From Candidatus Levyibacteriota bacterium (GTDB taxonomy: Bacteria > Patescibacteriota > Microgenomatia > Levybacterales > UBA12049), in assembly GCA_013816255.1 (NCBI GenBank), contig JACDET010000004.1, forward strand, positions 18,298-52,373: a stretch of DNA of 34,076 nt. The letters are read 5' to 3'. The stretch's first letter is position 1. The number at the start of each line of letters is the position of its first letter. Of this stretch, positions 6,141-26,612 are shown one piece after another. The translations under genes were made by a program, and so were the position numbers. The notes beneath the pieces are model-generated. The model saw only the letters and a program-made list of their open reading frames with translations, did not search any database and was not told where the DNA came from.

Positions 6141-9077
6141 TTACGGAGCGACTTCTTCAAGAGTAGTTCGCTGCAAACGAATAAACTCCGGGAGGTTAAG
6201 AACAAAGTCTAAGCGCTGTGTCAATTGCAGCGCAGGTGTGGAAGCATTATTTCCACAAAGATCTCGATTGTTCTGTAATGATCCACCTTTTCTTGCTGCG
6301 TTCACAATAAGCGTTCCTTCTACATTGAGTCTGAGATCTGAGCAGTTATTGTTGCTCTGCATAATAAATGATCGGTCAGTACTAAAAATACCTGATAAAT
6401 TAGCTATTATCACGGGAGCTGGACTACCAACAGTTGATGAAACGATAATATTCCCTGAAGCTGAAAAAACTGATGAAGAGGTGACAGGAGTAATTATATT
6501 GCCTCGAAGAGTGAGGTCCCCATTTATAAGGAAAACATATTTCCTGTTTGGTAGAAATGTGTGCGTATTTAATAGTACACTACTATTGGATTGATATACT
6601 CCCTGAGGTAAATTAACAGGAAGCGTGCAATTGGAAACTGTACAAACTGTGGAAAGATTTATAGGCGGAGTATCTGTCGTTTGTGCTTTTGCACTAAGAT
6701 AGGCATAGGACGAAAAGATACCTCCAGTATTTGGTGGAGTATAAACCTCTGGATATGCTGAACCCCCAACAACTTGGTTTGTAGAGGATGCATTACCAGG
6801 GGTAAATAATGGCGTTCCACTCCCTGTAAAGACAATTCCGGGAGACGTGCAGGAAGTATTGGTCGTCAGTGCTGATTGTCCGACGGGAACTGGATTGGTA
6901 ACGCCAGCATCATTACGGAAATTGCCACAAACCGACTGAATCCAAGGTAAAGAGTTATTAATGCCAAAATTAAGATTTGCGATATTGAGTGCACATGTTG
7001 CTCCTTGCGCCCCATTTGTATTACACGAAGGACCGACTGTTACTTGAAACGACGGTGGAGGACCATTTCGCGGGTATGATATGAAATATCCTATTGGAAG
7101 TGACGTATAGGAAACAGTCACTACCCCTGCGCTGAGATTATTTATCTTGTAGGTCCCCCCCGGACCAGTTGTAACATTTCCCGTACTTGCAGCAATACCC
7201 GGTGTCCCTGCATAGTTACGTTCACCTGCATCTTTTATACCGTTACCATTCTCATCAATAAACACTTGGCCATCAATGGTATATCTCTGCGCATTACCGA
7301 AATTAATAGTACTTATATTTCCATCTGTAATGGCAATGTCATATGCACTGTTTGTTGTAGCGGACCATCCAGGTTGGACGACTTGGGCTACCCGATAGGT
7401 GTTGGTACATAAACCTGTAAAGGTATAATTACCATTTACGCTAGTAACTTTTGAGCGCGCAGCACCTCCTGAGAGCTGTACTGTCCAACCGGCCAGTCCT
7501 TCTTCACCTGTATCTTTTAAAAGATTGGTATTTTTGTCATTATAAACTACACCTGTAATCTTGCCAGTCGGGAGAATCTCGGTAGAAATATCTCGAAAAA
7601 TGGTACTGAGCGTTCCATCGGTTGGATCATTATAATATTTACCTCCATTTGTTGCAGCAATTTGCTTTAGAAAATCCTCGTTAAAAGACTTACCTCCCTC
7701 TCCAATTCCAATAGAGTAGTAAACAGTGTCGTATGCGTTAACACCAACAATTATCTCATCCATTGCAGCATTTTCTGCAATATCATCATCGACATACCGA
7801 CCATTAGAAGTGACTATTTCGTTTGCAACCCCATCAGTCATAAAGATAACTTTTTTCTGCGCGTTTTTATTTCCATTTTTCTTTAATTCCTCATTTATCA
7901 AATTGGCACCACATTCATGGCATGTTCCATTTACAGTATCTATTGCACTTATTGCGCTTTTTACTTGGGCAAAGTTATTGGTTAATCCGACGGTTATTGC
8001 TGTGTCTGGATTGTCCGGGAAATTTGCACTTGATGAAAATTCTATAAGCCCGATCTTGGCTGAAGGAAGATCCGTCGCTATGATGTCAACAAATTCGTTT
8101 GCAGCTGCTTTGGCTACATTTATTTTGGAATCTCCTGTTGTAGGGTCAGTATTATCCATACTATCTGAATTATCAATAGCAATAATAATATCCGCAGTCC
8201 CAGCAGTACAAACTCCAGCAGCTCCTGTTGTTGACTGTTTCACACCAAAATTAACAATCCGACTAGCCGTCAAGGTAAATGTATTTGTATTCGGCGTTGT
8301 TGACCGATAACCCGGAGGAACTGTCACAGCAACCGTATATTTCCTCCCTGTAACTGTAGTAGGGAAAGAATAATTACCGCTCGTATCTGTTTGTGTCTGC
8401 AAAGTTGCTGAACCTGAACTGATCAATTTTACGGTCGCATTAACAAACGATGTGTCTGATCCATCTATCTTACTGTTTGCATTATTATCGACAAAAACAT
8501 TTCCTGTAATTGCGAACCGAGAGGTACTTCCTGTATAGGTAATATTTTGCAACGTCAATGTACTTCCAGAATTATTTAAATCCACACCTGATAGCGTACT
8601 GAAGTTTCCATCCCAGCCTACAGGTGTAATTATCGAAAAACTATGGGGATTGGTACTGCAATCAAATGAAGATTGTCCATAAAAATATGCCATATAATCA
8701 TCAGTTGTCCCGTCTAGATTCGTATCTATTCTTTTGGTTAACTGCTCGTCCCTGTTCTGATTCCACTCTTCATCGTTATCATCATTACCATTTTGATTGC
8801 CATCACTGTTCTCTAAGTTATCCCACGTTTCAAAGTAATATTCTCCATCTGCATTGGTTTTTGCATATCGCCATTGCACGCCATTATTATCCCATCCCTT
8901 ATCATTCCATTTCACCCAAACTCCTGCAATGGGAGCGTTTGTTCCTTGCGTCACAACTTTTCCTTTGACATTCTGTGTTACTGCCTCTACTTGTGACGGA
9001 ATAGTTATGCTAAACGCAGTAAAAACCAAGAGCGTCACAAATATATGTAAAAGTATTTTAATTGATAATAATTTCAT
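6141..9077 (-). CDS. Large secreted SdrD-like/VWA-domain surface protein
   Basis: The 978-residue product starts MKLLSIKILLHIFV, a typical signal peptide ending near residue 32; this ATG is preferred over one 33 nt upstream. A carboxypeptidase-regulatory-like beta domain (about 35-190) comes first, then an SdrD B-like domain (about 190-280, FVDNNANSKIDGSD). A von Willebrand A domain follows (about 296-500) with an intact MIDAS DNSDS at 302-306 and FMTDG near 413. Two more SdrD B-like domains (from about 505 and 600) carry Ca-binding loops such as NDKNTNLLKDTGE and DENGNGIKDAGE. The C-terminal third is beta-rich with several Cys and ends EFIRLQRTTLEEVAP. No LPxTG motif or C-terminal membrane helix is seen. 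The gene overlaps the parvulin gene by 20 nt, implying coupled translation. An adhesin or cell-surface structural role is likely. Confidence 0.93.
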   Translation of the reverse strand: MKLLSIKILLHIFVTLLVFTAFSITIPSQVEAVTQNVKGKVVTQGTNAPIAGVWVKWNDKGWDNNGVQWRYAKTNADGEYYFETWDNLENSDGNQNGNDDNDEEWNQNRDEQLTKRIDTNLDGTTDDYMAYFYGQSSFDCSTNPHSFSIITPVGWDGNFSTLSGVDLNNSGSTLTLQNITYTGSTSRFAITGNVFVDNNANSKIDGSDTSFVNATVKLISSGSATLQTQTDTSGNYSFPTTVTGRKYTVAVTVPPGYRSTTPNTNTFTLTASRIVNFGVKQSTTGAAGVCTAGTADIIIAIDNSDSMDNTDPTTGDSKINVAKAAANEFVDIIATDLPSAKIGLIEFSSSANFPDNPDTAITVGLTNNFAQVKSAISAIDTVNGTCHECGANLINEELKKNGNKNAQKKVIFMTDGVANEIVTSNGRYVDDDIAENAAMDEIIVGVNAYDTVYYSIGIGEGGKSFNEDFLKQIAATNGGKYYNDPTDGTLSTIFRDISTEILPTGKITGVVYNDKNTNLLKDTGEEGLAGWTVQLSGGAARSKVTSVNGNYTFTGLCTNTYRVAQVVQPGWSATTNSAYDIAITDGNISTINFGNAQRYTIDGQVFIDENGNGIKDAGERNYAGTPGIAASTGNVTTGPGGTYKINNLSAGVVTVSYTSLPIGYFISYPRNGPPPSFQVTVGPSCNTNGAQGATCALNIANLNFGINNSLPWIQSVCGNFRNDAGVTNPVPVGQSALTTNTSCTSPGIVFTGSGTPLFTPGNASSTNQVVGGSAYPEVYTPPNTGGIFSSYAYLSAKAQTTDTPPINLSTVCTVSNCTLPVNLPQGVYQSNSSVLLNTHTFLPNRKYVFLINGDLTLRGNIITPVTSSSVFSASGNIIVSSTVGSPAPVIIANLSGIFSTDRSFIMQSNNNCSDLRLNVEGTLIVNAARKGGSLQNNRDLCGNNASTPALQLTQRLDFVLNLPEFIRLQRTTLEEVAP

Positions 9078-9960
9078 ACTGGGTTTTTTGACCTTCGTAC
9101 CAAGCGTCAAAGCTATTTATTGGCGTCTCTGCTGTCTTTTGTTTCACTTGTGCAAACATATACAGTGCATCTAGCTCCACATTTCTTTCACTATCCTTTG
9201 CTTTGGCTAAATAGATTGCTGAAACTTCACCTACATTTAATCTGCGTATACTAGTATCAAAGGCAGGATCAAGCGTTATTGCTTCATCTTGTTTTACTTT
9301 AAAAGGCAAAAGCGCGTTTGTTTTATATGATGTAGGATCAATTTGCGCCAAACTTGTATCATTTCTTATAGCTTCAGCAGCTCGCTCAATTGTCATTTGT
9401 TTATTCTTTACAGCCTGATGGAGGGAGGTGATTTTGGAAAGTGCAAGTGCTTTTCCGGCTTCAGGACCAATAGGTGCGGGAATTGTATTCCCAAACCAAA
9501 TAGAAATAACGTTACCTTCCAAGGCGTACGATTTCTCTTCAATACGATCCTTTACACCTTCTACCATTTGTATTCTTTTCAGATAATCTTTCGTTGCACT
9601 ATCATAAACTGATGCATCGAGCGTTATAAGTCCTTCTTTAGCACCTGCCTGGAGAATAATTGAATCTTTGACGATTTTTTTAAGAAGAAGCTGCTCTCGG
9701 ATTATATCAGCTTGCGGTGGATATGAAGTCAGCTCCAAATCTAAATCATTCTTATAGATACGTTCCTCGCCTACTCTTGCAATAATATCATTTGGTTTTG
9801 CAGTATCTAAGTTTGTTGGTACAGTAACAGCCGTATCTGCCGGTGCTGCTTTTTTTGTAAAGAACGTTGTTTGCAAAATATAACCAACCATAAAAACGAC
9901 GATAAGACCGAAAACGACACCAAGTAATAATTGTACTTTTGTATTGTTTAAAATATTCAT
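9058..9960 (-). CDS. Membrane-anchored SurA/PrsA-like parvulin-type chaperone
   Basis: The 300-residue product has a single N-terminal membrane helix (about 11-31) and an exported remainder. The region from about 55 (ARVGEERIYKNDLDLEL) resembles the start of SurA/PrsA N-domains, V-x-G-x-x-I-x-x-x-D-L. Residues about 165-290, with NVGEVSAIYLAKAKDSERN, resemble a divergent parvulin prolyl isomerase domain. I see no clear conserved isomerase residues, so a pure holdase role is possible. Its ATG overlaps the stop of the membrane-bound Clp gene by 4 nt (ATGA), and its end overlaps the VWA protein start by 20 nt. Context suggests that it helps fold the large surface protein outside the membrane. 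Confidence 0.82.
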   Translation of the reverse strand: MNILNNTKVQLLLGVVFGLIVVFMVGYILQTTFFTKKAAPADTAVTVPTNLDTAKPNDIIARVGEERIYKNDLDLELTSYPPQADIIREQLLLKKIVKDSIILQAGAKEGLITLDASVYDSATKDYLKRIQMVEGVKDRIEEKSYALEGNVISIWFGNTIPAPIGPEAGKALALSKITSLHQAVKNKQMTIERAAEAIRNDTSLAQIDPTSYKTNALLPFKVKQDEAITLDPAFDTSIRRLNVGEVSAIYLAKAKDSERNVELDALYMFAQVKQKTAETPINSFDAWYEGQKTQYEIIIN

Positions 9961-12368
9961 TTCGTTACCTCCGTATGTAACGCCCCTGTACCATCAATTG
10001 AAAACGCGACTGTACAACCCCGGTCAATCTCTTTCGTTAACCGCTTTTGGGCAATCATATCTTCAACTGTATCTTGCAGATATCGACGCAGTGGTCGTGC
10101 TCCAAAGTCTTGGTCGTATCCTTCTTTGGTAATCTTCTCAATAACAGCCTCATCAAACGTAAGTGTAATATCTTGTTTTTGCATCGTCTTAGTCAATGCA
10201 TCAAGCATCAATTTCGTCACAGCAGTAATTTGCTCAGGACCAAGTGGTTTGAAGGTGACCACGTCATCAAAACGGTTAAGTAGTTCCGGCTTAAAGATAC
10301 CTTTTGTTTGAAGTTGCTCCAAAAGGCGCTGCTCAAACGCTTTATTAATAGCCGTTCCTTTTGCAACTTCCTCACGGATAAATTCAGATCCAGCATTGGA
10401 TGTAGCAATAATGATCGCATTACGAAATGATACGGTTGTTCCTTTATTATCAGTCAGTCGCCCATCATCGAGTACTTGCAGAAATAGGTTATGAATTGAT
10501 GGATGTGCTTTTTCAAATTCATCAAGCAGAATAAGTGAAGCAGGATTATCATGAACCTTATCAGTCAATTGTCCTCGCTCTTCTCCTTCTCCAGGTGCAG
10601 CACCAAGAAAACGCTTTAACCCGTTCTCATCAGTATATTCACTCATATCAAGCCTGATCATTTTCTCCTCGCCTCCATAATAGAACTGCGCTAATGCTTT
10701 GGCAGTTTCTGTTTTTCCCACACCCGTTGGGCCTAAGAAAAGAAATGAAATTGGACGTTCGCTTGTGGTCATACCTGAGCGGACTCTACGCATTGCTTCA
10801 CTGATCGCTGTAACTGCTGCATCTTGTGCGATAACACGTTCATGCAACTTATCTTCCAAATGCAACAATAAATCAATCTCCTTACCAGTTGGCAAAGCAA
10901 TTGCTACGTGACTTGTCGCTTCAACTTTTTTAACAACATCTGCTTCAAGTACCATTTTGCGGTGTGTTTTCTCAAACGTTGGGCGCTCTTTTTCTTGCGC
11001 AATAGCATTGGCAACCGTCTCCAGAAGTGAAATGGCACTTCCCGGAAGCACTTGATCTTGATAAAAACGGTTTGCTAGCTCAACAGCACTGACTAACGCA
11101 CGATAACTAATAATTACTTTGTACCGTTCTTCGATCTTGGTTGCTTCCCCAAGTGCCATCTGCACCGCAGTTTCCTGTGTAATCTCGCGAAGATCGACTA
11201 TTGTGAATGCTTCACGTAATGGATTTTTTTCCATATAAGTTTTATAATTTCCGGTTGTTATTGTGGCAATAACAGGTACAGATCCGCTCTTCAGATACGG
11301 AAGCAATGCACCGGAAAGATCGATCCCGTAAGACGTTGCGCCTAATATATTTTGGAAATCAGGAATATATACCAACACATCATTGGCATGTGATATCTCG
11401 GCAATAATCTGCTGCAGACGTGATTCCAAATCACTTCTATTGCCAGCTCCCGCAGTCAAAGCACCGACGAGTAACTGAAATACTCTTTTGTGATCAAGAT
11501 AGCCTCCAATACTGCCTGTAAAACTATGGTATGCCAGTGCACGCACCAAGTTTTCTTTGCCTGCGCCAATATCTCCAACAAGGAGTACATTATTATTTTC
11601 AACTTTTGTTAGACCTTCAAGCATTGTTTTGAATTCTGCTTCTCTCCCGCTAATTAATGGTTCAGTCCTGAGTGCATAATTTGTAAATTGTGCGGTATAT
11701 TTCCTCGTTTCAGGTGTCCAACCAGAAACAAGTGCTTCACCGATGCCACCGCCGTTGAAATGTACTCTGAGTTGTTTTGGCGTTTCTTCATCAGGCATAT
11801 CAAGCCGTACCCATGAGAGTATGTTGTACAGATCAGCAATTTTGAGCTGTTTGGCGAAAAGTATTTTTGTGTCATCTTCAATTAAGAATAAATAGGCTAC
11901 AAAAACATCAAGTGTCGTCACATATTTGCCTTTAAAGGTTTGCGCCGTCTGGAATGCGCTTTGTGCAAGTAAGTGCTTTTGGACTTCTGTGACGACAATG
12001 TCGCGACTTGTGATGTTCGCTTTTTGCATGACGAGTTTGATTTGAGGATAGGTAATCAGTTTGTGGATAAGTCTTGACGTATTTGGTTCGGTAACAAAGC
12101 CATAGAGGGCGGGAAGCGTAAACGACTCGTACATATGTTCTTCTTTATTTTTCGCGACAGGAATTGTCGGCATTGCACGGCTTATTTTGTAGTGAAAAAA
12201 CACCTCAAACATAACGAGTATATTGAAGAGAAAAAGAGCAATTTTTGGCGAAATATTATTTGCAACTTGATACAAAACTAGCGCAAACAAAAGCATAAAC
12301 GCGACAAGACGGATACTCCGAATAAGAGCAGTTCGATAAAAATGATAGAGTCGAGCAGATAATTCCAT
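9957..12368 (-). CDS. Membrane-anchored Clp-like double AAA+ ATPase with degenerate first ring
   Basis: The 803-residue product has two N-terminal membrane helices (about 20-36 and 42-60), a Clp-N-like helical region (about 95-190), and two AAA+ modules. Module 1 is degenerate: its P-loop reads GDIGAGKE (265-272), with Glu in place of Ser/Thr, and the Walker B region reads VLVYIPDF (331-338) without the catalytic Glu. Module 2 has GPTGVGKT (546-553) and LILLDE (612-617), so it should hydrolyse ATP. Where Clp proteins have the G-Y-V-G pore loop, it reads GAAPGEGEERG. The family's [ILV]-G-[FL] ClpP loop is not seen. The ATG at 12368 is preferred over an in-frame TTG 21 nt upstream. It follows a small membrane-protein gene by 2 nt. 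A membrane-localised remodelling role is inferred. Confidence 0.93.
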   Translation of the reverse strand: MELSARLYHFYRTALIRSIRLVAFMLLFALVLYQVANNISPKIALFLFNILVMFEVFFHYKISRAMPTIPVAKNKEEHMYESFTLPALYGFVTEPNTSRLIHKLITYPQIKLVMQKANITSRDIVVTEVQKHLLAQSAFQTAQTFKGKYVTTLDVFVAYLFLIEDDTKILFAKQLKIADLYNILSWVRLDMPDEETPKQLRVHFNGGGIGEALVSGWTPETRKYTAQFTNYALRTEPLISGREAEFKTMLEGLTKVENNNVLLVGDIGAGKENLVRALAYHSFTGSIGGYLDHKRVFQLLVGALTAGAGNRSDLESRLQQIIAEISHANDVLVYIPDFQNILGATSYGIDLSGALLPYLKSGSVPVIATITTGNYKTYMEKNPLREAFTIVDLREITQETAVQMALGEATKIEERYKVIISYRALVSAVELANRFYQDQVLPGSAISLLETVANAIAQEKERPTFEKTHRKMVLEADVVKKVEATSHVAIALPTGKEIDLLLHLEDKLHERVIAQDAAVTAISEAMRRVRSGMTTSERPISFLFLGPTGVGKTETAKALAQFYYGGEEKMIRLDMSEYTDENGLKRFLGAAPGEGEERGQLTDKVHDNPASLILLDEFEKAHPSIHNLFLQVLDDGRLTDNKGTTVSFRNAIIIATSNAGSEFIREEVAKGTAINKAFEQRLLEQLQTKGIFKPELLNRFDDVVTFKPLGPEQITAVTKLMLDALTKTMQKQDITLTFDEAVIEKITKEGYDQDFGARPLRRYLQDTVEDMIAQKRLTKEIDRGCTVAFSIDGTGALHTEVTK

Positions 12369-12370
12369 AT

Positions 12371-12697
12371 TTATAAAAACAGTAACCAAATTGTTGCAAA
12401 CGGTAAAAAGATATATCCGATAAAGACAGTTACCTCAAAGAGGAGCAAGAGTATAAGCATGAGCAGATTCGCTAGAATTAGCCACGTCTTTACAAACATT
12501 CCTACAGCAACAGAAAAGGCAACAAGCCCTTGCCTATATTCATTCTTTATTGGCTTAAAGTATGTTTTGAGAAAAAGTGGTAATGAAAATAGTTGCAGGA
12601 ATGATCTATTGAGTGAAAAAAAGAACTTTAAAAGAGCCAACGGACTTTCAAAGAACCAAAACTTGAGAAACATTACAGGCAGGACTAAATAATTCAT
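12371..12697 (-). CDS. Small polytopic membrane protein
   Basis: The 108-residue product is strongly hydrophobic. Likely helices span about 5-25, 30-45, 57-72 and 75-105, with a basic loop (KTYFKPIKNEYRQG) between the first and second halves. I do not recognise the family. Its stop lies 2 nt before the start of the membrane-anchored Clp-like ATPase, so it leads a tight four-gene unit (this gene, Clp-like, parvulin, VWA protein). It may be an assembly partner of the ATPase. A palindromic repeat element occupies most of its leader. Confidence 0.82.
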   Translation of the reverse strand: MNYLVLPVMFLKFWFFESPLALLKFFFSLNRSFLQLFSLPLFLKTYFKPIKNEYRQGLVAFSVAVGMFVKTWLILANLLMLILLLLFEVTVFIGYIFLPFATIWLLFL

Positions 12698-12851: not shown

Positions 12852-15800
12852 TTACTCAATCTCGTCCTGACGGGTTTGTGGGGCGACGTAATTGATACGT
12901 CTAAATGATGCTGGAATACCTGAGTAATTATATGGGCTTGCAGTTGGTTGCATAGCAGCACCATTTGATGCGACGCCACTTGTCGGAATGCTGTCAACAG
13001 CAGATGGAGCAGGCGGTGACTGGAACACAGGCCCAGTTGCTTGTGCTGGCGGAGGCATTTGTGATGGTGCACTTGGTGTTGTAGCCGGATACGCAGATGG
13101 CGTTATGACAGATTGATCAGTCTGTGTCGGAGCTGGTGTCATTGGTGCTGGAGCAGATGCATCAGTAGTCACAGGTGTTTGCGGCATTTCTTGTGCTACA
13201 CCTGTTGGTGCTGCTGGGGTTTCGCTTGGAGACACTTGACCCAATGAACTTGGAACTGCTGATTGATCATCAGAAGGTTGTGCTAGATTTGGGTCTGTTG
13301 GTGCTGGCTGTTCATCAATTGGAGCAGGAGTTCCATTTCCTGTGCTAGCATCAGTTGCTGCTTGATCTGGAGAGCCGTCTGCACTAGCTTGTCCGTCTGC
13401 TGGTGAAGTTGCAGATTCATCACCTGCTACTGCAATCCCTGCAGTTTGCATGACCAAAAGCGCGATTTCATCTTTTTTAACACATGCTGCCTGCATCTGA
13501 TCCATAAGGCTTTGCATTTCGTCCATTGTTGCTGTCTCTTTGAAAGCTAGAAGTGCTCCTGCAAGCAAATTACCCTTTCCATTTGCCTCGTTCACTTTGG
13601 ATTGAACTCCAGTATAAAGCTCTCGCTCTTGAGGCGTTTCAGCAGTCATTGGACTCATAACCAAAAGTATGGTTTGTTTTAATTTTCGCAGCGGCTGATT
13701 TTTAATTTCACTTTCAATCACCTGCAATATCTCTGTTGCCAATGGATCGCCAGCTTCATTTGCCCTTTCAAGCTGTACTTTTATCTGCATAATGTCATCA
13801 TCTGATGTGATGTCAGTAATTGCAAGAATAGCTGTAGCAATTTCATTATTTTCGGCTTTTGCTTTAGAAATCTTGTCATACAGAACGCTGAACTTTGCTT
13901 TATTTTCTTTGTCCGCGAGATAAAGAGGATTGATAAGTTGTTTCAAAACATTCTTGAATTTCGTCACAGGTTCTTCTTCATGCGCTGCTTCAGCTTCGTC
14001 CACAACTTCTTTATTCACTGCAATAAGGATTTCCTCGGCCAAACTATCTCCGTCATCTTGTGCTTTTTTGAGCTCAATCATAAGCTCATCAATCGCTGCT
14101 TCAGGTGTTGTCTCATTGACGGCTAAGATTTTGACAGCTAAAGCATTACCGCGTTGACTTTCAGCATTTAACTTCTCATGTAATTCCATGAATCTGAGCT
14201 TTTTATCTGGCTGTTTGATATCATTTGGGTGAATAATCTCGAGTAAAATCTTCTTAAGCTTTAGTGAGGCTTGAATTTGCTGTGCCATACTGGATGCGAG
14301 ATCCATGATTGCAACGGCCAATGAGTCGCCTTTTGCTTTTGCCTCTTCAATTTCTTTTCTGAGGGTTTGAATCTGTTTGAGATCTGTTGAAACGGTAACT
14401 TCCAAAACAGCACTTGCCATTTTATTGTTTTCAGACCGGGCTTGAAGAAGCTGATCGTGGAGTACAATAAACCTTTGGCGGTCGTTAATACTTACAACAC
14501 TTTCAGGATTAGCGAGTTGCATCAGCACTGTTCTGAATTGTTCATCACTCAGTGGAGCCATAGTTGCGGCAGCTCCGCCTTTGTTGAAGATAAATTCATT
14601 GGTATTGTCACTGTAATCAATAACAATCGTGTCCCCTGGTACAAACTTCTTCGAAATTATTGCCAATGCAATTGGGTTTTCAATAGCTGTTTGGACAAGT
14701 CTTCTCAGTGGTCGCGCACCGTAAACAGGGTCATACCCATCTTTTGCAAGCTGTGCAATAGCTTTTTCGGTAATTTGGAGATTATAGCCTTGTTCTTTGA
14801 GGAGTTTTGCGGTCTTTGCAATAGCAAGCCTGGCGATTCCGGCCATGTGTTCAGGCTGGAGTGGTTTGAAGATAACAACCTCGTCAAAACGGTTTAAAAG
14901 TTCGGGACGGAAGAATTTAATCAATTCTTCTTTGACTTTCAGTGTCATATCTTTAAACGTTCTTTCAAATTCTTCAGGAGATTTCTTAGCTTTTGGATCA
15001 ATTGTACTTAAGAACTGTTGAATTATCGCACTTCCAATGTTACTCGTACAGATAACAATTGTATTCTTAAATGAAATTGTATTGCCTTTGTTATCGGTCA
15101 AGCGACCATCTTCAAGGAGCTGTAACAAGACGTTAAAGACATCAGGATGTGCTTTTTCGATTTCGTCAAACAATACAATTGAATACGGCTTCTTCCGAAC
15201 TGCTTCAGTCAATTGTCCACCCTCTTCATATCCGACATAGCCTGGAGGCGCACCAATCAGCTTGGCAACTTCGTGCTTTTCCATATACTCTGACATATCA
15301 AGACGAGCCATAGCATCATCTTTACCAAACAAGAGTTCCGCAAGTGTCTTCGCAAGTTCAGTTTTACCGACACCGGTAGGACCTAAGAAAACAAAAGATG
15401 CAATTGGACGGTTAGCCGCAGCCAAACCAATTCTTCCACGTCGTACAGCTTCAGAAACAGCACTCACTGCTTGCTCTTGGTCAATCATGCGGTGGTGGAT
15501 CCGGTCTTCAAGCTTGAGAAGCTTTTCACTTTCATCTTCAGTAAGCTTGGTAATAGGAATACCAGTCCATGCACTTACTACTTTTTCAATATCAGCCTTT
15601 TTAATCGAAGTATCTCCTCCACCTCTATTGCCTGCGTCAATTTGCAACTTTACCTCAGATGCTGCTTCATCAAGAAGATCAATTGCCTTGTCTGGCAAGA
15701 AGCGCTCACCAATATATTTTTTTGATAATTTGACACATTCCTTCAATGCATCATCAGGAATTTGAATTCTGTGAAACTTTTCATACTTTGGTCTGATAAC

Positions 15801-17153
15801 TTTAAGCATCTCAAAAGCATTTTCTTCACTTGGTTCGTCAGCCTGTACAGGTTGGAAGCGTCGTTCAAACGCTTTATCTTTCTCAAAGTTCTTGCGATAT
15901 TCAACAGTCGTCGTCGCACCAATAAGTTGGAAATGTCCACGAGCTAAATGAGGTTTGATGATATTGGCCGCATTCATACCTTCACCGTCACCAGTTCCCA
16001 TCAAAGCATGGATTTCGTCAATAAAGAGGATAATCCGATTGTTGGAACCAAGCACTTCAGTAATAACGCCTCGCAAACGTTCTTCAAATTCTCCGCGGTG
16101 ACTCGCACCTGCGATGAGGGACGCGACATCGAGTTGAAAAATTCTTTTGTCTTTCAGATCTTTTGGCACAGAACCTTGCACAATCTTTTGCGCCATCCCT
16201 TCAACCAATGCTGTTTTACCTACACCAGGTTCACCAATGATAATAGGGTTATTTTTGGTTCTTCGAAGCAGTACATGCACCATGCGGTCAATTTCTTTGT
16301 CGCGTCCTGAAACAGGATCAAGCCTTCCTGCTCGAGCTTCTTCTGTCAAATCTACTCCATATTTCTCAAGTATTGTCTTTTTACCAAAAGTGCTCTTTGG
16401 ATCTTTTGAAATTTTTTCAACAAGCGTTTCTTTTTTCAGATTATGTTTGGTGAGATATGCTGCAGTTGTATAGCTTGGGTTGAATAATACAATTAAGATA
16501 TCCTCAGGAGCTATAAAATTTGCCCCACGCATTTTGGCATCTCGATATGCTTGATCAAATACTTCTTGCGCAGTTTTGCTTAACGTTGGCTGTCCTTTAT
16601 AGACACCCATTTTTTCATTTGCTTGTATTTCCTTTGAGATCTGTCCGCCATCAGCTGCCATCTCACTGAGCATCGCATAAAGCTGTTCATCATAAAGAAG
16701 CCCGAGAAGCACTTGATCAGGTTCAATATTTTGTTGTTTTATGCGCTTGGTTTCTTCTTGTGCATGTGTGAGTGCTTGCGTCGCTCGTGGATCAAGGTGG
16801 CTAAGCGCTGAAAGATCTGCCTGCCCTGCAGCAGGATGTGTTGGATCTGGAGTTGCGCTAGGCGTCCCTGGTGCAACTGGTTGACCGCTTACTGGTGCAT
16901 TCGGATCAGCTGGAGGCGTACCTGCTGGTGCAGCGGCCACATTTGGATCAGTCGGTGGTTGCGAACCGTCGGTTGGATTTTGTTCAACCGGCTGCGCACT
17001 AACAGGTGCATTTGGATCAGCTGGCTGACCATTTATTGGTGGAGCAGATGGATCAACAGGGGCTCCCTGTACAGGTTGTGCTGGGGTTTGCGCCTGGGGA
17101 TCCTGTTGCGATGGATCTTGGTCTTTTTTCTGATTAAAAATATTTCCAAACAT
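12852..17153 (-). CDS. ClpA/C-type AAA+ unfoldase with Pro-rich N-terminal and repeat-bearing C-terminal extensions
   Basis: This 1433-residue protein has a Clp core. Residues 1-113 are Pro/Gln/Ala-rich, with [10 protein letters not shown] repeated. A Clp-N domain covers about 114-260. Ring 1 has GEPGVGKT (307-314) and ILFIDE (375-380); ring 2 has GPTGVGKT (591-598), IVLFDE (659-664) and an intact pore loop GYVG (638-641). The linker between rings is short, as in ClpA/C, without the ClpB middle coil, and no clear [ILV]-G-[FL] ClpP loop is seen. Beyond the core (about 862), four repeats of about 90 residues (865-1235) match those of the VirB6-like neighbour, followed by a Pro/Thr/Gln/Ala-rich tail. 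Usual ClpC proteins are about 810-850 residues. A leaderless promoter directly precedes the ATG. Confidence 0.96.
13450..14565 (-). repeat. Four ~90-residue helical repeats in the Clp C-terminal extension
   Basis: Four units follow the second AAA+ ring. Each has a first helix with [IL]-x-x-[IL]-x-N/S-P, a D-R-x-x-F-x-x-L-H type second helix, a G-N-x-L-A-x-x-I-L turn, and A-x-x-x-G-D-x-L-A-x-x-I-L. The best examples are [10 protein letters not shown] with [10 protein letters not shown], and [10 protein letters not shown] with [10 protein letters not shown]. The fourth unit is most divergent. The same unit occurs five times in the VirB6-like protein upstream. Confidence 0.8.
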
Positions 17154-17247: not shown

Positions 17248-20200
17248 TTATTTCTTTTCTTCAGCATTTGTATCTTCAACTTTTAACACGTTCTCTTCAG
17301 CTTTAGTTTCTTTCGTTGCATTAACTGTCTCTTTACCTTCTTCTTCTTTTTGTAATTCAGCGATGACGTTTGTTCCCGCTTCTGTTTTGGCTTTAAGATA
17401 TCCGATGATTTCAAGGGACGAGAATCCACCAAGCATAAGCATTGGCATAATTTCAGAAACCTTTTGCATACCTAATTGTTGCTTCTCAGTTTCTGGTGAC
17501 ATCAATTGCTCGATCGTCTCTGCAACAACTTTCACATCAGATTGAATCCATGCAACTCGGCCTGTTGCCTCACTACCAAATTCTACGGGAACAGGAAGTG
17601 TGCGGTAGTTCTCTTCCCACATCTTTTTCACTTCTTCATAATCAGCATCAGAAACAGGCTGGAGCGTATTTGCATCTGGGACAGCAGCCTCCGGGAGGTG
17701 TTCAAGAACTGACTGAGCAACTGGTTCACCTTTGATCTTTGCCTCTTTGAGCTTTTCACTGAGCTTTTGAATATCTTCAACTGAAGTCGCGTCGTGAGTA
17801 GCCAAAATTGATTTTGCCAATTCATTGCCGTCTGCACTTGCTTTGGTCAATGATTCATTAAGCTGCGTAAAGCGCTTCTTATCAGCTTCAACTGTTGCGA
17901 GTGAAGGATTGGCGATCTGAGACAGAACTGACTTTACATGATCTGACGGTTGCCCTTGTGCTTTGAGTGAAGCATTAAGGAGAACTTCGGCAGTAAGATT
18001 TCCTTTTTGTTTTTCATCCAAGAGCGTTTGGCGGACTTTTTCAAATTGCGCGCGTTCTGTTGTATCGGTAATCTTTGATGGATTGGCGATCTTCCCAAGA
18101 ACACTTTGCATCTTTTCAATTTCAACTGTTCTGGTTGCATCTTTCTTCATTGCCCGGGTTTCATATTGTGCAATATCACGAAGCTTTGGAAGTTTTAAGT
18201 CAACCATAGCAAGTATCTCGTTTGAAACCTGTGGTTGTACTGGTGTCGTTGATTGTGCAACGTTCGCAACATTCATATTTGCAAGTGGACTCTCATCGTT
18301 TGCATCGTCATCATCTGAAGATGATGCATTCGAACTTGAAGATGATGCATTCGAACTTGAAGATGATGACGTACTACTTTGTTCCATCGTCGCAGACATA
18401 GTCTTTTCCGCGTGCGTTGTAGTAGCGTTAACGCTAACTTTATCGTCCTCATCAGCGGCAAGTGTCTTTGATACCTCTTTCGCTGCATCTTGTTTGGCTT
18501 GGAGATATTGCACAATTTCATCCTGAGAGAATCCTCCAACCATGAGGAACGGAAGTATGTTTGAAACCTGCTCCATACCTTCTTTTACTTTGTCTTGATC
18601 AGGTGAAGTCAATAACCCTATTGTCTCGTCAATACCTTCGACATCATCTTTGATCCAATCCGCCCGCGTACCTGCCATTCCTTGTGGCACCTCTAAGTTC
18701 TGATAATTCTGCTTCCACATATCTCGGACTGCTTGGTAATCTTCTTTACTGACATTTTGGACACGGTTAAGAGAAGGTAGTGCCGTTGTTTGTTGCGCCA
18801 ATGCTGCTACTTCTGTTGCAACTGGTTCTCCTTTTTCTTTGGCCATCTGAATTCTTTGCTGCAAAGCTTCAATCTCTTCTATAGGTGTTTTATCATTTAC
18901 TTTAAGTATTGATGAAGCGAGCTGATTTCCCTGTGCGCTTGCTTTCTCAAGGGTTGCTTTCAGTTTTGTTACAGACTGTTTATCTGCGGTATGAGTAACC
19001 GATTTAGGGTTAGCCATTTGCGTAATGACACCTTTGATTTGTGTTGATGCTTGCGCTGATTGTGTAACGGCTGAAGATACAGATTTTCCAACATGCGTGT
19101 TTGAACTTTGACTCAATTGGCTTTTAATTTTCTCTATTTCTTTATCCGAAGTTTTGTCGGTTACAGAAAGGACCGCTTTTGAAAGTTCACTCTTTTGTGT
19201 ACCTTTTGCTCCCTGACTTTCTTTTACAAGCAAGTTATTTAATTTGCTCATCTTCTCACGGTTGGTAGAAGATGCTAAGGAAGGATTTGCCATTTGCTTT
19301 AACGACTCTCTCATCTGCTGATTTGAGACTTGTGCGTTACGCTTTGCTGTGACACTGGCAGCGTTTAGGATTGAACTGGCGACAAGATTTCCTTTATCAC
19401 TATTTGCTGAGATCTTCTCGTGAATTTCCACGTATTGATCCCGTTCAACAGTATTTGTGACAGAAACTGGGTTCGCAATCCTTTCAAGTGTTTGTGTAAT
19501 ACGGGATGTTTCCTGCTGTTTGGATGCATCACGAGAAGTAAGTGCTGCATCATATTTCGCAATATCTCGCATACTTGGGACTTTCATATTGGCAACACTT
19601 AATACTTGCGCGTTAACACTTGCGTTGTTCATCTGCGGCATAGCTATAGGTTGAGCAAATGATGCCGTCATGCTTTGAACATTAAGTTCTTTTGCTTCAC
19701 CAGTCGGCTGCGGCTGTAAGTCTTTTGGAATAGAGAACTTCTTTGAGAAAGGCAAACTAATAGCAGCCCCAGTTGAAGGCGGCATAGTTCCACCACCACC
19801 TGCAGGAGGATTTTTGTTGGAATTAGCCATATTGACCAGCGTCTTCATGACAGCTGTGTCACCTGGTGCGAAGTTAGAAGCGTAATCCAGAAAGATCTGC
19901 AAAAGAATCCATGGCAAGAGAATAACAATCCATAACATGATAAGAGAAACGACATACAGAGCAAATGTTTCAATCAAGTTAAGACTGTTCAGTGGCGTAA
20001 CAAATTCTTTTGGGCCACCCAGCAAGATATTTACGGCAGTTGGGAAAATAACCTGATCAACTTTATCACGACCCGCATTGGTGAAGACAAGCGGAATATT
20101 ACTTTTCCATAAGTACACTAAGCCATTTAGAAAGATTGCAAAGAGTGGAGCGTAGAGAAGCCAACGGAAGAATTCACCAATCCAAATCTTGGCTGTGTTA

Positions 20201-21048
20201 CGGACAGGGTAGTACAAAAGAAGGATTGGGAAAATTGGAGAAACAATAATAAAGAACCAAAGAATAATCTTTCTCACAAGTAAAAGGAAAACCATCACAA
20301 AGTATGTAAGTGCTGTCAGTTTAGTCAAAAGAAGCGATATAAAAGCTGATTCAGCATATTCATCACCCAGCAAACGAAGTCCTATGAAGTCTTGGTACTT
20401 CCATCCGACGTACAATAAATTGGTTTGTTGAATACAATCTGGTGGACACGGCTTATTGATATCAGTACGGAGGAAGAATCCTTGGATTAAATCTGTAAAC
20501 TGATAAAAGAACTGGAGAAGTGCGTAAGAAAATACAATAAGAAGAACCACAGCTACAAACCGTGGTATAAAACGCATAATCGTCAAACTTTTACCGCGGG
20601 TAATAATAATAACTATCGATGTTGCTAAGATAACAATAAAGAGCAGAGGCACCACAATGTAAAGTACGATCAGTGACCAGTAGGCTGCAATTGGGTTATT
20701 GGTATTATCACAATAGATTGCCTGTGTCTGGCCATTCACGCCGCCTTGAGCTGTACCGCGGGTACCAACTTGTTTTACACACGACCAGTGGTAGTTCTGA
20801 AGCGTCCAATCCAAGAATAAACCTGAACGGGCAGCATTTTTCCCGATAAATGTAACCTCAGGATCAATGACCCAAATAGATGTCGATGGGGCAGCAGCTC
20901 CTGGAGCTGGTTGCGCACCGGGATTTACCCCAATCTGTGGAACAGGTGGAGCACCTCCAGGAGGAACAACGGCAAATGCTGCATTAGGAGAAACCAACGC
21001 TATAATAGCAAACAAAAAAACAACTAGAATGGACAGAATTCTTTTCAT
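17248..21048 (-). CDS. VirB6/TrbL-like polytopic protein with long duplicated cytoplasmic tail
   Basis: The 1266-residue product starts with a signal-like helix (1-26, cut near A-F-A) and a Pro/Ala-rich exported segment with Cys residues. Six membrane helices follow at about 123-149, 161-181, 235-257, 259-280, 293-314 and 358-388. That layout resembles VirB6/TrbL, the inner-membrane channel of type IV secretion. Residues 390-1266 are soluble and carry five A-N-P repeats in two related blocks. Each block ends in a shared module (YxxVxxMWxxNY, then a W-I-x-x-D-V helix and GGFS). A Ser/Asn/Asp-rich linker joins the blocks. The tail repeats match those in the Clp ATPase encoded next. The gene follows the small VirB2-like gene by 14 nt. 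A channel that recruits the ATPase is inferred. Confidence 0.88.
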   Translation of the reverse strand: MKRILSILVVFLFAIIALVSPNAAFAVVPPGGAPPVPQIGVNPGAQPAPGAAAPSTSIWVIDPEVTFIGKNAARSGLFLDWTLQNYHWSCVKQVGTRGTAQGGVNGQTQAIYCDNTNNPIAAYWSLIVLYIVVPLLFIVILATSIVIIITRGKSLTIMRFIPRFVAVVLLIVFSYALLQFFYQFTDLIQGFFLRTDINKPCPPDCIQQTNLLYVGWKYQDFIGLRLLGDEYAESAFISLLLTKLTALTYFVMVFLLLVRKIILWFFIIVSPIFPILLLYYPVRNTAKIWIGEFFRWLLYAPLFAIFLNGLVYLWKSNIPLVFTNAGRDKVDQVIFPTAVNILLGGPKEFVTPLNSLNLIETFALYVVSLIMLWIVILLPWILLQIFLDYASNFAPGDTAVMKTLVNMANSNKNPPAGGGGTMPPSTGAAISLPFSKKFSIPKDLQPQPTGEAKELNVQSMTASFAQPIAMPQMNNASVNAQVLSVANMKVPSMRDIAKYDAALTSRDASKQQETSRITQTLERIANPVSVTNTVERDQYVEIHEKISANSDKGNLVASSILNAASVTAKRNAQVSNQQMRESLKQMANPSLASSTNREKMSKLNNLLVKESQGAKGTQKSELSKAVLSVTDKTSDKEIEKIKSQLSQSSNTHVGKSVSSAVTQSAQASTQIKGVITQMANPKSVTHTADKQSVTKLKATLEKASAQGNQLASSILKVNDKTPIEEIEALQQRIQMAKEKGEPVATEVAALAQQTTALPSLNRVQNVSKEDYQAVRDMWKQNYQNLEVPQGMAGTRADWIKDDVEGIDETIGLLTSPDQDKVKEGMEQVSNILPFLMVGGFSQDEIVQYLQAKQDAAKEVSKTLAADEDDKVSVNATTTHAEKTMSATMEQSSTSSSSSSNASSSSSNASSSDDDDANDESPLANMNVANVAQSTTPVQPQVSNEILAMVDLKLPKLRDIAQYETRAMKKDATRTVEIEKMQSVLGKIANPSKITDTTERAQFEKVRQTLLDEKQKGNLTAEVLLNASLKAQGQPSDHVKSVLSQIANPSLATVEADKKRFTQLNESLTKASADGNELAKSILATHDATSVEDIQKLSEKLKEAKIKGEPVAQSVLEHLPEAAVPDANTLQPVSDADYEEVKKMWEENYRTLPVPVEFGSEATGRVAWIQSDVKVVAETIEQLMSPETEKQQLGMQKVSEIMPMLMLGGFSSLEIIGYLKAKTEAGTNVIAELQKEEEGKETVNATKETKAEENVLKVEDTNAEEKK
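17375..18225 (-). repeat. Second copy of the duplicated tail block of the VirB6-like protein
   Basis: This block starts NEILAMVDLKLPKLRDIA and contains two A-N-P units (GKIANPSKITD, SQIANPSLAT). It then has KGEPVAQSVL, DYEEVKKMWEENYRTL, RVAWIQSDV and MLGGFSSLEIIGYLKAK. Each segment aligns with the first copy at 18481-19617. It is shorter because it lacks one repeat unit. Confidence 0.85.
18317..18369. repeat. 21-bp in-frame tandem repeat, 2.5 copies
   Basis: The unit runs 18317-18337 and is repeated identically at 18338-18358, then partly to 18369. On the coding strand it gives Ser-rich S-S-S-N-A units followed by an Asp run, forming the flexible linker between the two tail blocks. The identity of the copies suggests recent slippage. 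Confidence 0.85.
18481..19617 (-). repeat. First copy of the duplicated tail block of the VirB6-like protein
   Basis: The block begins AQVLSVANMKVPSMRDIA and contains three A-N-P units (LERIANPVSV, LKQMANPSLA, ITQMANPKSV). It continues KGEPVATEVA, DYQAVRDMWKQNYQNL, RADWIKDDV and MVGGFSQDEIVQYLQAK. The correspondence with the second block is colinear, so a segmental duplication followed by divergence is the simplest reading. Confidence 0.85.
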
Positions 21049-21062
21049 AAATAAGTACTTTT

Positions 21063-21359
21063 TTAATTAAATCCAGGGACTCGCAAAATATCTGAGATAA
21101 TTACTTCGATAAATACATAGCCAAAGATTGCAAGCAATAGTCCTGCAATCGAGTAAAAAATATAACTTTTGCCGATGTTAACCCTTTGCGGATCTCCGCG
21201 GGAAGTCAAAATTGTGTATCCACCCAAAATAAGTGTGATGAGTGCTATACCGCCTACAAAGCCTAACCCAATTGGATAGAATTCCTGAACAAAGCCGATG
21301 GGATCATTTGGCAAACATCCAAAATCTGTCTGAATTCTATCAATAGCACAAGGCTTCAT
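21063..21359 (-). CDS. Small two-helix VirB2/TrbC-like membrane protein
   Basis: The 98-residue product has two Cys near the N-terminus (4 and 15), a membrane helix at about 27-50 (GLGFVGGIALITLILGGYTI), a short basic loop (LTSRGDPQRVNIGKSY) and a second helix at about 68-90, ending ILRVPGFN. This two-helix hairpin with a small polar loop is typical of VirB2/TrbC-type components. It resembles the C-terminal domain of the Cys-rich protein at 27492-28910, with T-S-x-G-x-P loops and I-L-x-[VI]-P-G-F ends. It precedes the VirB6-like gene by 14 nt, the same pairing as in many type IV secretion loci. Pilin or channel-plug roles are both possible. Confidence 0.85.
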   Translation of the reverse strand: MKPCAIDRIQTDFGCLPNDPIGFVQEFYPIGLGFVGGIALITLILGGYTILTSRGDPQRVNIGKSYIFYSIAGLLLAIFGYVFIEVIISDILRVPGFN

Positions 21360-25880: not shown

Positions 25881-26612
25881 TTACCATCCCTTAGCACTTG
25901 TTTCAATAAGATCTGCAAAGTATCTAACAGTTGGAATAATTGTTGTATACCGTAACCTTGCAGGTCCAAATACTCCAATTCTCCCTTTTACATTTAATGG
26001 CGTTGTATATTCAGTAAAAATAAATCCATATGGTCCTACGAGTTTTGCACCCAATTCATCTTCAATCAATATATGTACTTCATCATCATCGTGCACCATT
26101 GCATAGATGCCTTCAAAGCTAGCATATTCATCAAGCGCTTCGAGTAACGTTTTGGTGACATCAATGTCATAAAACTCAGGCATTTCCAATATATTTGCAT
26201 ACCCAGAACAATAAATGTCTCCATCATTGGTCGTCGCAATTGCCAAAGTACCTGTCTTTTCAGCCAGTGAACGGGTTGATTCTTTCAAGAACCGCTGCAT
26301 CCGCTCACGATAATCCCATACTTTTTCTTTGAGTGCCACTTCTTCGACTGTTGAAAGATCCTTCTCTTTCATCAGTTCCCGGACATAAAACTTTAAGCCC
26401 ATGGCAGTCGGTATACGACCGGCCGACGAATGAGGCTTTTTCAGATAGCCATATTCTGAAAGCTTCACCATCTCATTTCTAATTGTCGCAGGACTCGCAC
26501 TCAAGTTGTGCTTTTTTTCAATTGTTTCTGATCCAACTGGATCAGCTGTCTCGATATATTCCTCGATAATACTCCGAAGAATCTCGATTTGCCTTTGTGT
26601 TAAGTTATGCAT
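25881..26612 (-). CDS. hrcA: Heat-inducible transcription repressor HrcA
   Basis: HrcA represses chaperone genes and is folded and activated by GroEL in model bacteria. The 243-residue product has the N-terminal winged helix (about 1-75), with TQRQIEILRSIIEEYI, DPVGSETI, SASPATIRNEM and the family signature KPHSSAGRIPT near 59-69. The C-terminal effector region is about 100 residues shorter than the usual 340-350-residue protein, so part of the GAF-like/insert region is reduced. It begins the chaperone operon, behind a strong promoter and a leader of about 80 nt. No CIRCE inverted repeat (TTAGCACTC-N9-GAGTGCTAA) is found near it; tandem repeats in the leader may replace it. Confidence 0.94.
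   Translation of the reverse strand: MHNLTQRQIEILRSIIEEYIETADPVGSETIEKKHNLSASPATIRNEMVKLSEYGYLKKPHSSAGRIPTAMGLKFYVRELMKEKDLSTVEEVALKEKVWDYRERMQRFLKESTRSLAEKTGTLAIATTNDGDIYCSGYANILEMPEFYDIDVTKTLLEALDEYASFEGIYAMVHDDDEVHILIEDELGAKLVGPYGFIFTEYTTPLNVKGRIGVFGPARLRYTTIIPTVRYFADLIETSAKGW

Follow-up and report, generated by a model that had tools for sequence, protein, structure and literature searches.

A membrane-anchored Clp-type AAA+ protein of Patescibacteria that keeps the ATPase motifs of its second ring, has lost its pore-loop aromatics and is linked to a small hairpin membrane protein

The window analyzed here, a 34,076-nucleotide stretch of contig JACDET010000004.1 from a Candidatus Levyibacteriota bacterium, encodes a membrane-anchored Clp-type AAA+ protein, which we refer to as memClp, and directly upstream of it a small membrane protein, sm, whose stop codon lies 2 nt from the memClp ATG at 12368 (Table 1). 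The memClp reading frame is open over 9957-12389 on the minus strand and specifies 803 amino acids from this ATG, or 810 from an upstream TTG.

Table 1. Features of the memClp locus, in positions of the window.
Feature	Position	Strand	Evidence or remark
memClp, membrane-anchored Clp-type AAA+ protein	9957..12368	(-)	ORF; Pfam AAA_lid_9, AAA_2, ClpB_D2-small; AF2 mean pLDDT 85.5; best folds ClpC/ClpB
Two memClp membrane helices	12183..12329	(-)	Residues 21-43 and 49-69 in the numbering that starts at the TTG; AF2 helices and hydropathy
D1 Walker A, degenerate GDIGAGKE	11553..11576	(-)	GK[ST] present in 11/30 close and 32/73 distant relatives
D1 pore loop without its aromatic: AGAGNRSDLE for AGTKYRGEFE	11424..11453	(-)	Alignment
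D1 Walker B, DE pair lost: YIPDFQN	11349..11369	(-)	Alignment
D1 Arg-finger site, RR lost: NPLREAFT for AALERRFQ	11202..11225	(-)	Alignment
D2 Walker A, intact GPTGVGKT	10710..10733	(-)	Lys invariant among relatives; Thr replaced once, by Ser
D2 pore loop replaced by GEGEERG	10572..10592	(-)	Alignment; GYVGYEEGG shortened by two residues
D2 Walker B, intact LLDEFEK	10509..10529	(-)	Alignment
D2 sensor-1 N665, conserved	10395-10397	(-)	Alignment
D2 Arg finger R706 (NRF), conserved	10272..10274	(-)	Alignment
D2 sensor-2 R765, conserved	10095-10097	(-)	Alignment
sm, 108-aa helical-hairpin membrane protein	12371..12697	(-)	AF2 pLDDT 96; adjacent or fused to memClp in relatives
Soluble Clp	12852-17153	(-)
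VirB6/TrbL-like membrane protein	17248-21048	(-)
T4SS pilin-like ORF	21066-21359
hrcA	25881-26612	(-)
SurA-like anchored protein	9058-9960
Large surface protein	6141-9110	(-)	VWA and SdrD_B domains

A first-pass annotation of this DNA had described two N-terminal membrane helices fused to a double AAA+ Clp architecture, and both parts of that description were borne out, the helices by the AF2 model and the Clp architecture by Pfam, AF2 and the ClpC and ClpB folds. In the AF2 model, which was built with 29 sequences, the membrane helices are followed by a helix run fitting the Clp-N double repeat and then by D1 and D2; the Pfam matches cover the D1 lid, an AAA_2 domain and the D2-small domain. 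Among profiles, ClpC of Bacillus subtilis matches best (7.8e-176), and structure comparison likewise returned ClpC and ClpB as the best solved folds. By Pfam, profile, model and fold match, memClp keeps the two AAA+ rings of the HSP100 class I fold, although it scores below the cut-offs of the NCBIfam equivalogs for both ClpA (415 bits; cut-off 993) and ClpB (446 bits; cut-off 1232). Its order of Clp-N-like region, D1, D2, and D2-small is that of B. subtilis ClpC (PDB 3j3t/7abr) and other class I HSP100s. However, memClp adds a membrane hairpin and a constant sm partner, and it lacks the D1 ATPase site, the aromatic pore loops of D1 and D2, the M-domain, and the ClpP-docking loop, the last being deleted in the alignment with B. 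subtilis ClpC. The positive charges flanking the helices suggest that Clp-N, D1, and D2 face the cytoplasm.

A search of 60 relatives identified full-length memClp orthologues, 73-38% identical, in most genomes of the same family. A profile scan added at least 13 membrane-type relatives, mostly from named Patescibacteria, and memClp-type proteins are found in Moran-, Magasanik-, Kerfeld-, Uhr-, Sung-, Parcu- and Saccharibacteria. In a survey of 153 Patescibacteria genomes, full-length members proved numerous and spread over dozens of families; 80 memClps and 20 soluble Clp controls were extracted from it, and the window's order, the named set and these 80 make up the 121 membrane members scored below. 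When the trait columns were removed before tree building, all 66 sampled membrane Clps formed one clade (SH-aLRT 100), separate from the soluble Clps of Patescibacteria and of other phyla. We found no description of this family in the open-licence literature. We define sm-memClp as a clade of TM-anchored Clps in which D2 is intact, the pore aromatics are lost, and sm is adjacent or fused, all of which are observed here. The memClps of Moran-, Magasanik- and Kerfeldbacteria (L037, L039, L040) have, in addition, a CxxC...CxxC motif N-terminal to the membrane helices that recalls a DnaJ zinc ribbon.

The first ring is degenerate at several sites. The GDIGAGKE reported for its Walker A is confirmed in the window, but homologues with an intact P-loop, which the first-pass annotation had named as evidence against its reading, do occur for D1 (11 of 30 close orthologues, a count that includes the window's own sequence). 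As the D1 P-loop varies in this way among relatives, its exact state in the window matters little. In the Walker B motif of the window, Asp is replaced by Pro and Glu by Asp, so the reported absence of a Walker B glutamate holds for this sequence; nine of the close orthologues read IPEF, however, and it is the DE pair that is gone in all 30. Two losses go beyond what had been noticed before. The KYRG of the D1 pore loop has become xNQG or GNRS across memClp relatives, with ENQG-like letters in the B. subtilis ClpC alignment, and the D1 Arg fingers (RR) are absent from all 30 close sequences, the window included. None of the 121 membrane-linked members has an intact D1 ATPase set, as opposed to 25/25 soluble Clp controls. 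These alignments support D1 as a dead ATPase ring, one that would have given up ATP hydrolysis and would serve as a structural ring layer.

By contrast, the ATPase of the second ring is retained, and here the earlier reading that ring 2 keeps both of its ATP motifs was correct. All 30 close sequences, and essentially all 121 membrane members, have Walker A and B, both sensors and the Arg finger of D2; the variants are in sensor 1, where TSN is TTN in three members and SSA in one. D2 thus looks like a working ATPase, and its conservation, including an Arg finger that acts in trans, implies an oligomeric one: D2 would hydrolyse ATP within an oligomer, with Arg fingers given in trans. It has to be considered whether memClp is instead a pseudo-enzyme whose D2 binds ATP but does no work, as a clearly dead D1 and the loss of the pore loops might suggest. 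The first-pass annotation had itself suggested an ATP-driven scaffold as one possibility. Retention of the full set of D2 catalytic residues in essentially every member phylum-wide is not sufficiently accounted for by a static scaffold alone, and we regard this explanation as very unlikely.

The D2 pore loop presents the opposite picture to the D2 ATPase site. In the window this region reads GAAPGEGEERGQL, and the GEGEERG that had been singled out as a replacement for the canonical loop does stand, as an acidic, Gly-rich, shorter stretch, where B. subtilis ClpC has GYVGYDEGG. Among the 30 close sequences no aromatic occupies the canonical pore position in either ring; across all membrane members the canonical D2 aromatic, and with it anything like the intact pore loop that had also been named as counter-evidence, occurs in about 2/121 (Tyr of GYPG in L155, Phe of GFAG in L176), while the D2 pore is intact in 25/25 soluble Clp controls. 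At other positions of the altered loop, Tyr or Phe occurs in 3/30 close and 12/74 distant members. The length of the loop is also variable, with drastic shortening in L026, L027, L032, and L034. Within the D2 pore loop, membrane members show a column identity of 0.20, against 0.49 over the remainder of D2; the corresponding values in soluble Clps are 0.85 and 0.57. Judged by these values, the part that is most constrained in soluble Clps is the least constrained in membrane members, where the ATPase is fixed; apart from the ATPase, no trait of the family is as consistent as the loss of the aromatics from both pore loops.

Because the aromatic grip is lost in both rings across the family, processive threading is unlikely, as the first-pass annotation had supposed; the same argument has been made for Torsins, which are Clp-related, membrane-associated, devoid of pore loops and thought not to thread (PMC5425593, PMC4999309). 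With neither ring providing such a grip, the ATP cycle is probably not used for processive threading or proteolysis. A counterpoint is that non-aromatic loops could still move polypeptide weakly. Driven by the D2 ATPase, such loops might pull selected membrane proteins, perhaps bound to sm, into the cytosol, so that memClp would act as a gentle dislocase like Msp1 or as an FtsH without its protease. The full Clp fold, the intact D2 with its trans Arg finger, the membrane anchoring, and the few members with aromatics in or near the loop (L155 and L176) are all compatible with threading by an altered grip. FtsH, which carries a protease, and Msp1 resemble memClp in being membrane-anchored AAA+ rings facing the cytosol, but they belong to a different AAA+ clade and have kept their aromatic pore loops, whereas aromatics are missing from both loops in nearly all 121 memClps and the D2 loop differs in length from member to member, down to the four drastically shortened ones. 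We consider this kind of threading unlikely, if still worth weighing.

The constant feature of memClp outside its own reading frame is sm. AF2 models sm as a helical hairpin, for which we found no Pfam or NCBIfam family match and no structural relative among the solved folds in the PDB; by model and fold search, it has no AAA+ fold. The sm gene is directly upstream of memClp in 20/20 relatives. In the phylum sample of 80 memClps, sm is adjacent in 63 (62 found by upstream scan and one by genome search) and fused to the N terminus of the Clp in the other 17, where it matches with E values of 5e-11 to 3e-26, and it is absent from all 20 soluble Clp controls. Across 59 genomes, 34 contain both proteins, two only memClp, none only sm, and 23 neither (Fisher p = 2e-14); in one of the two genomes with memClp only (L189), the sm sequence is interrupted by a stretch of Ns. 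A search of 18 genomes from other phyla with the sm profile gave a single match, at chance level (E 0.09). Fusion and strict co-occurrence together are strong evidence for a joint function of sm and memClp, while no proof of binding; the two may bind physically. memClp would sit beside the sm hairpin through its own two-helix hairpin, or as one polypeptide with it in the lineages that have the fusion. In one fused subgroup (L155, L163, L169, L144, L154), the D2 loops are long and resemble GYVG, and the D1 DE pair is mostly kept, as if these proteins were intermediate between soluble Clp and memClp.

The many motif losses might in principle mark memClp as a decaying paralogue without function or as a product of faulty sequence, and sequencing or assembly error had been named at the outset as something that could undo the reading. 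The overall state of the window's motifs is shared by a same-genus genome and 28 other relatives, so they are not a sequencing or assembly error. Moreover, the reading frames are long and open, D2 is strongly conserved in dozens of families, and the linkage to sm extends over the whole phylum, which refutes decay as well and leaves this explanation with practically no probability.

The second gene upstream of memClp encodes a soluble Clp in the window's genus, as it does in some relatives. This protein has intact pore loops and a long C-terminal extension, the repeats of which match repeats of the next gene product, a VirB6/TrbL-like membrane protein (BLAST 1e-15 to 1e-7); a T4SS pilin-like ORF comes after the VirB6/TrbL-like gene. 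A Clp motor may here be connected with a type IV secretion-like channel. It had been suggested that memClp is the membrane dock for this full-length Clp, and the two might alternatively meet in mixed hexamers; the proximity of the genes and the 38% identity between the D1-D2 regions of the two proteins would be in keeping with either arrangement. Yet in nine relatives at least 90% complete (G016, G019, G022, G024, G030, G032, G034, G036, G042), memClp is the only Clp match, and hence it needs no soluble Clp to dock. In many relatives the soluble Clp-VirB6-pilin module is located elsewhere in the genome, and the constant partner of memClp is sm. Docking is thus contradicted as a general role, and we find it highly improbable. 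ClpP is missing as well, being absent from 23/23 high-quality relatives, with two weak partial matches in 40 genomes, which indicates that memClp does not feed ClpP.

These properties set memClp apart from the established HSP100 types. It differs from ClpC/ClpA unfoldases in its ATPase, which does not extend to both rings (D1 in 0/121), in its pore loops, and in having neither a ClpP-docking loop nor a ClpP in the genome. Compared with the disaggregases ClpB and Hsp104, memClp has no room between the D1 lid and D2 for the coiled-coil M-domain that recruits DnaK; a DnaK-coupled disaggregase, despite the dnaK neighbourhood, is ruled out by the missing M-domain. Plant SMXL/SMAX1 proteins, a weak profile match, are also Clp-derived and have turned to a non-proteolytic role, but they are soluble, eukaryotic and otherwise unrelated. 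Torsins have one AAA+ domain, reside in the ER lumen, and lack an Arg finger of their own, which is supplied by an AAA+-like cofactor. Torsins (TorsinA with LAP1/LULL1) and memClp have in common that they are Clp-related and membrane-associated, have no aromatic pore loops, and have a membrane partner; memClp, however, is double-ringed with its own conserved Arg finger R706, and sm is not an AAA+ protein. Since there is no Torsin among the 60 best profile matches of memClp and ClpC is far closer by sequence, memClp is related to Clp proper and any likeness to Torsins is convergent.

The membrane anchor and the sm partner place the work of memClp at the cytoplasmic membrane. Combined with the improbability of threading, this location favors a non-threading membrane chaperone or remodeller. 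We think it probable that memClp and sm constitute a single HSP100 machine, membrane-bound and powered by ATP but non-threading, in which sm is the dedicated membrane partner and which does Torsin-like work without being a Torsin. In such a machine, turnover of ATP by the putative oligomer would alter the conformation or the assembly state of a membrane client, sm in the first place, and memClp could thereby act in membrane remodelling or as an assembly chaperone. A broader proposal, which we put forward more tentatively, is that Patescibacteria evolved a bacterial counterpart of the Torsins. In it, a membrane HSP100 and its dedicated hairpin partner would spend ATP on building or remodelling complexes of the envelope or of cell division, again with no threading, as a machine that is conserved in much of the phylum and may be essential to such minimal cells. 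Threading by aromatic pore loops is what defines HSP100/Clp proteins, and a large bacterial clade that has kept the ATPase and lost the grip would demonstrate that such a ring is capable of other work, as has been proposed in the case of Torsins. As Patescibacteria have very few genes, the retention of a two-gene machine over so much of the phylum suggests that it is important, and cultured Saccharibacteria make sm-memClp open to genetic test.

The neighbors of memClp offer a weak hint about its client. In the window's lineage memClp lies near genes for chaperones (dnaK-dnaJ-grpE-hrcA) and for translation (nusA-infB) and not near division genes; no CIRCE element, allowing up to 3 mismatches, was detected in the window, although hrcA is present. 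The division and wall genes mraZ, rsmH, ftsL, ftsI, ftsX, and mraY/wecA lie at most 8 genes away at 18/54 loci in several arrangements, a raw count with names assigned by eye from sequence. The recurring positions beside mraZ-rsmH-ftsL, mraY/wecA, and ftsX faintly point to division or cell-wall machinery. On the other side of memClp in the window, a large surface protein carrying VWA and SdrD_B domains is encoded directly downstream of a SurA-like anchored protein.
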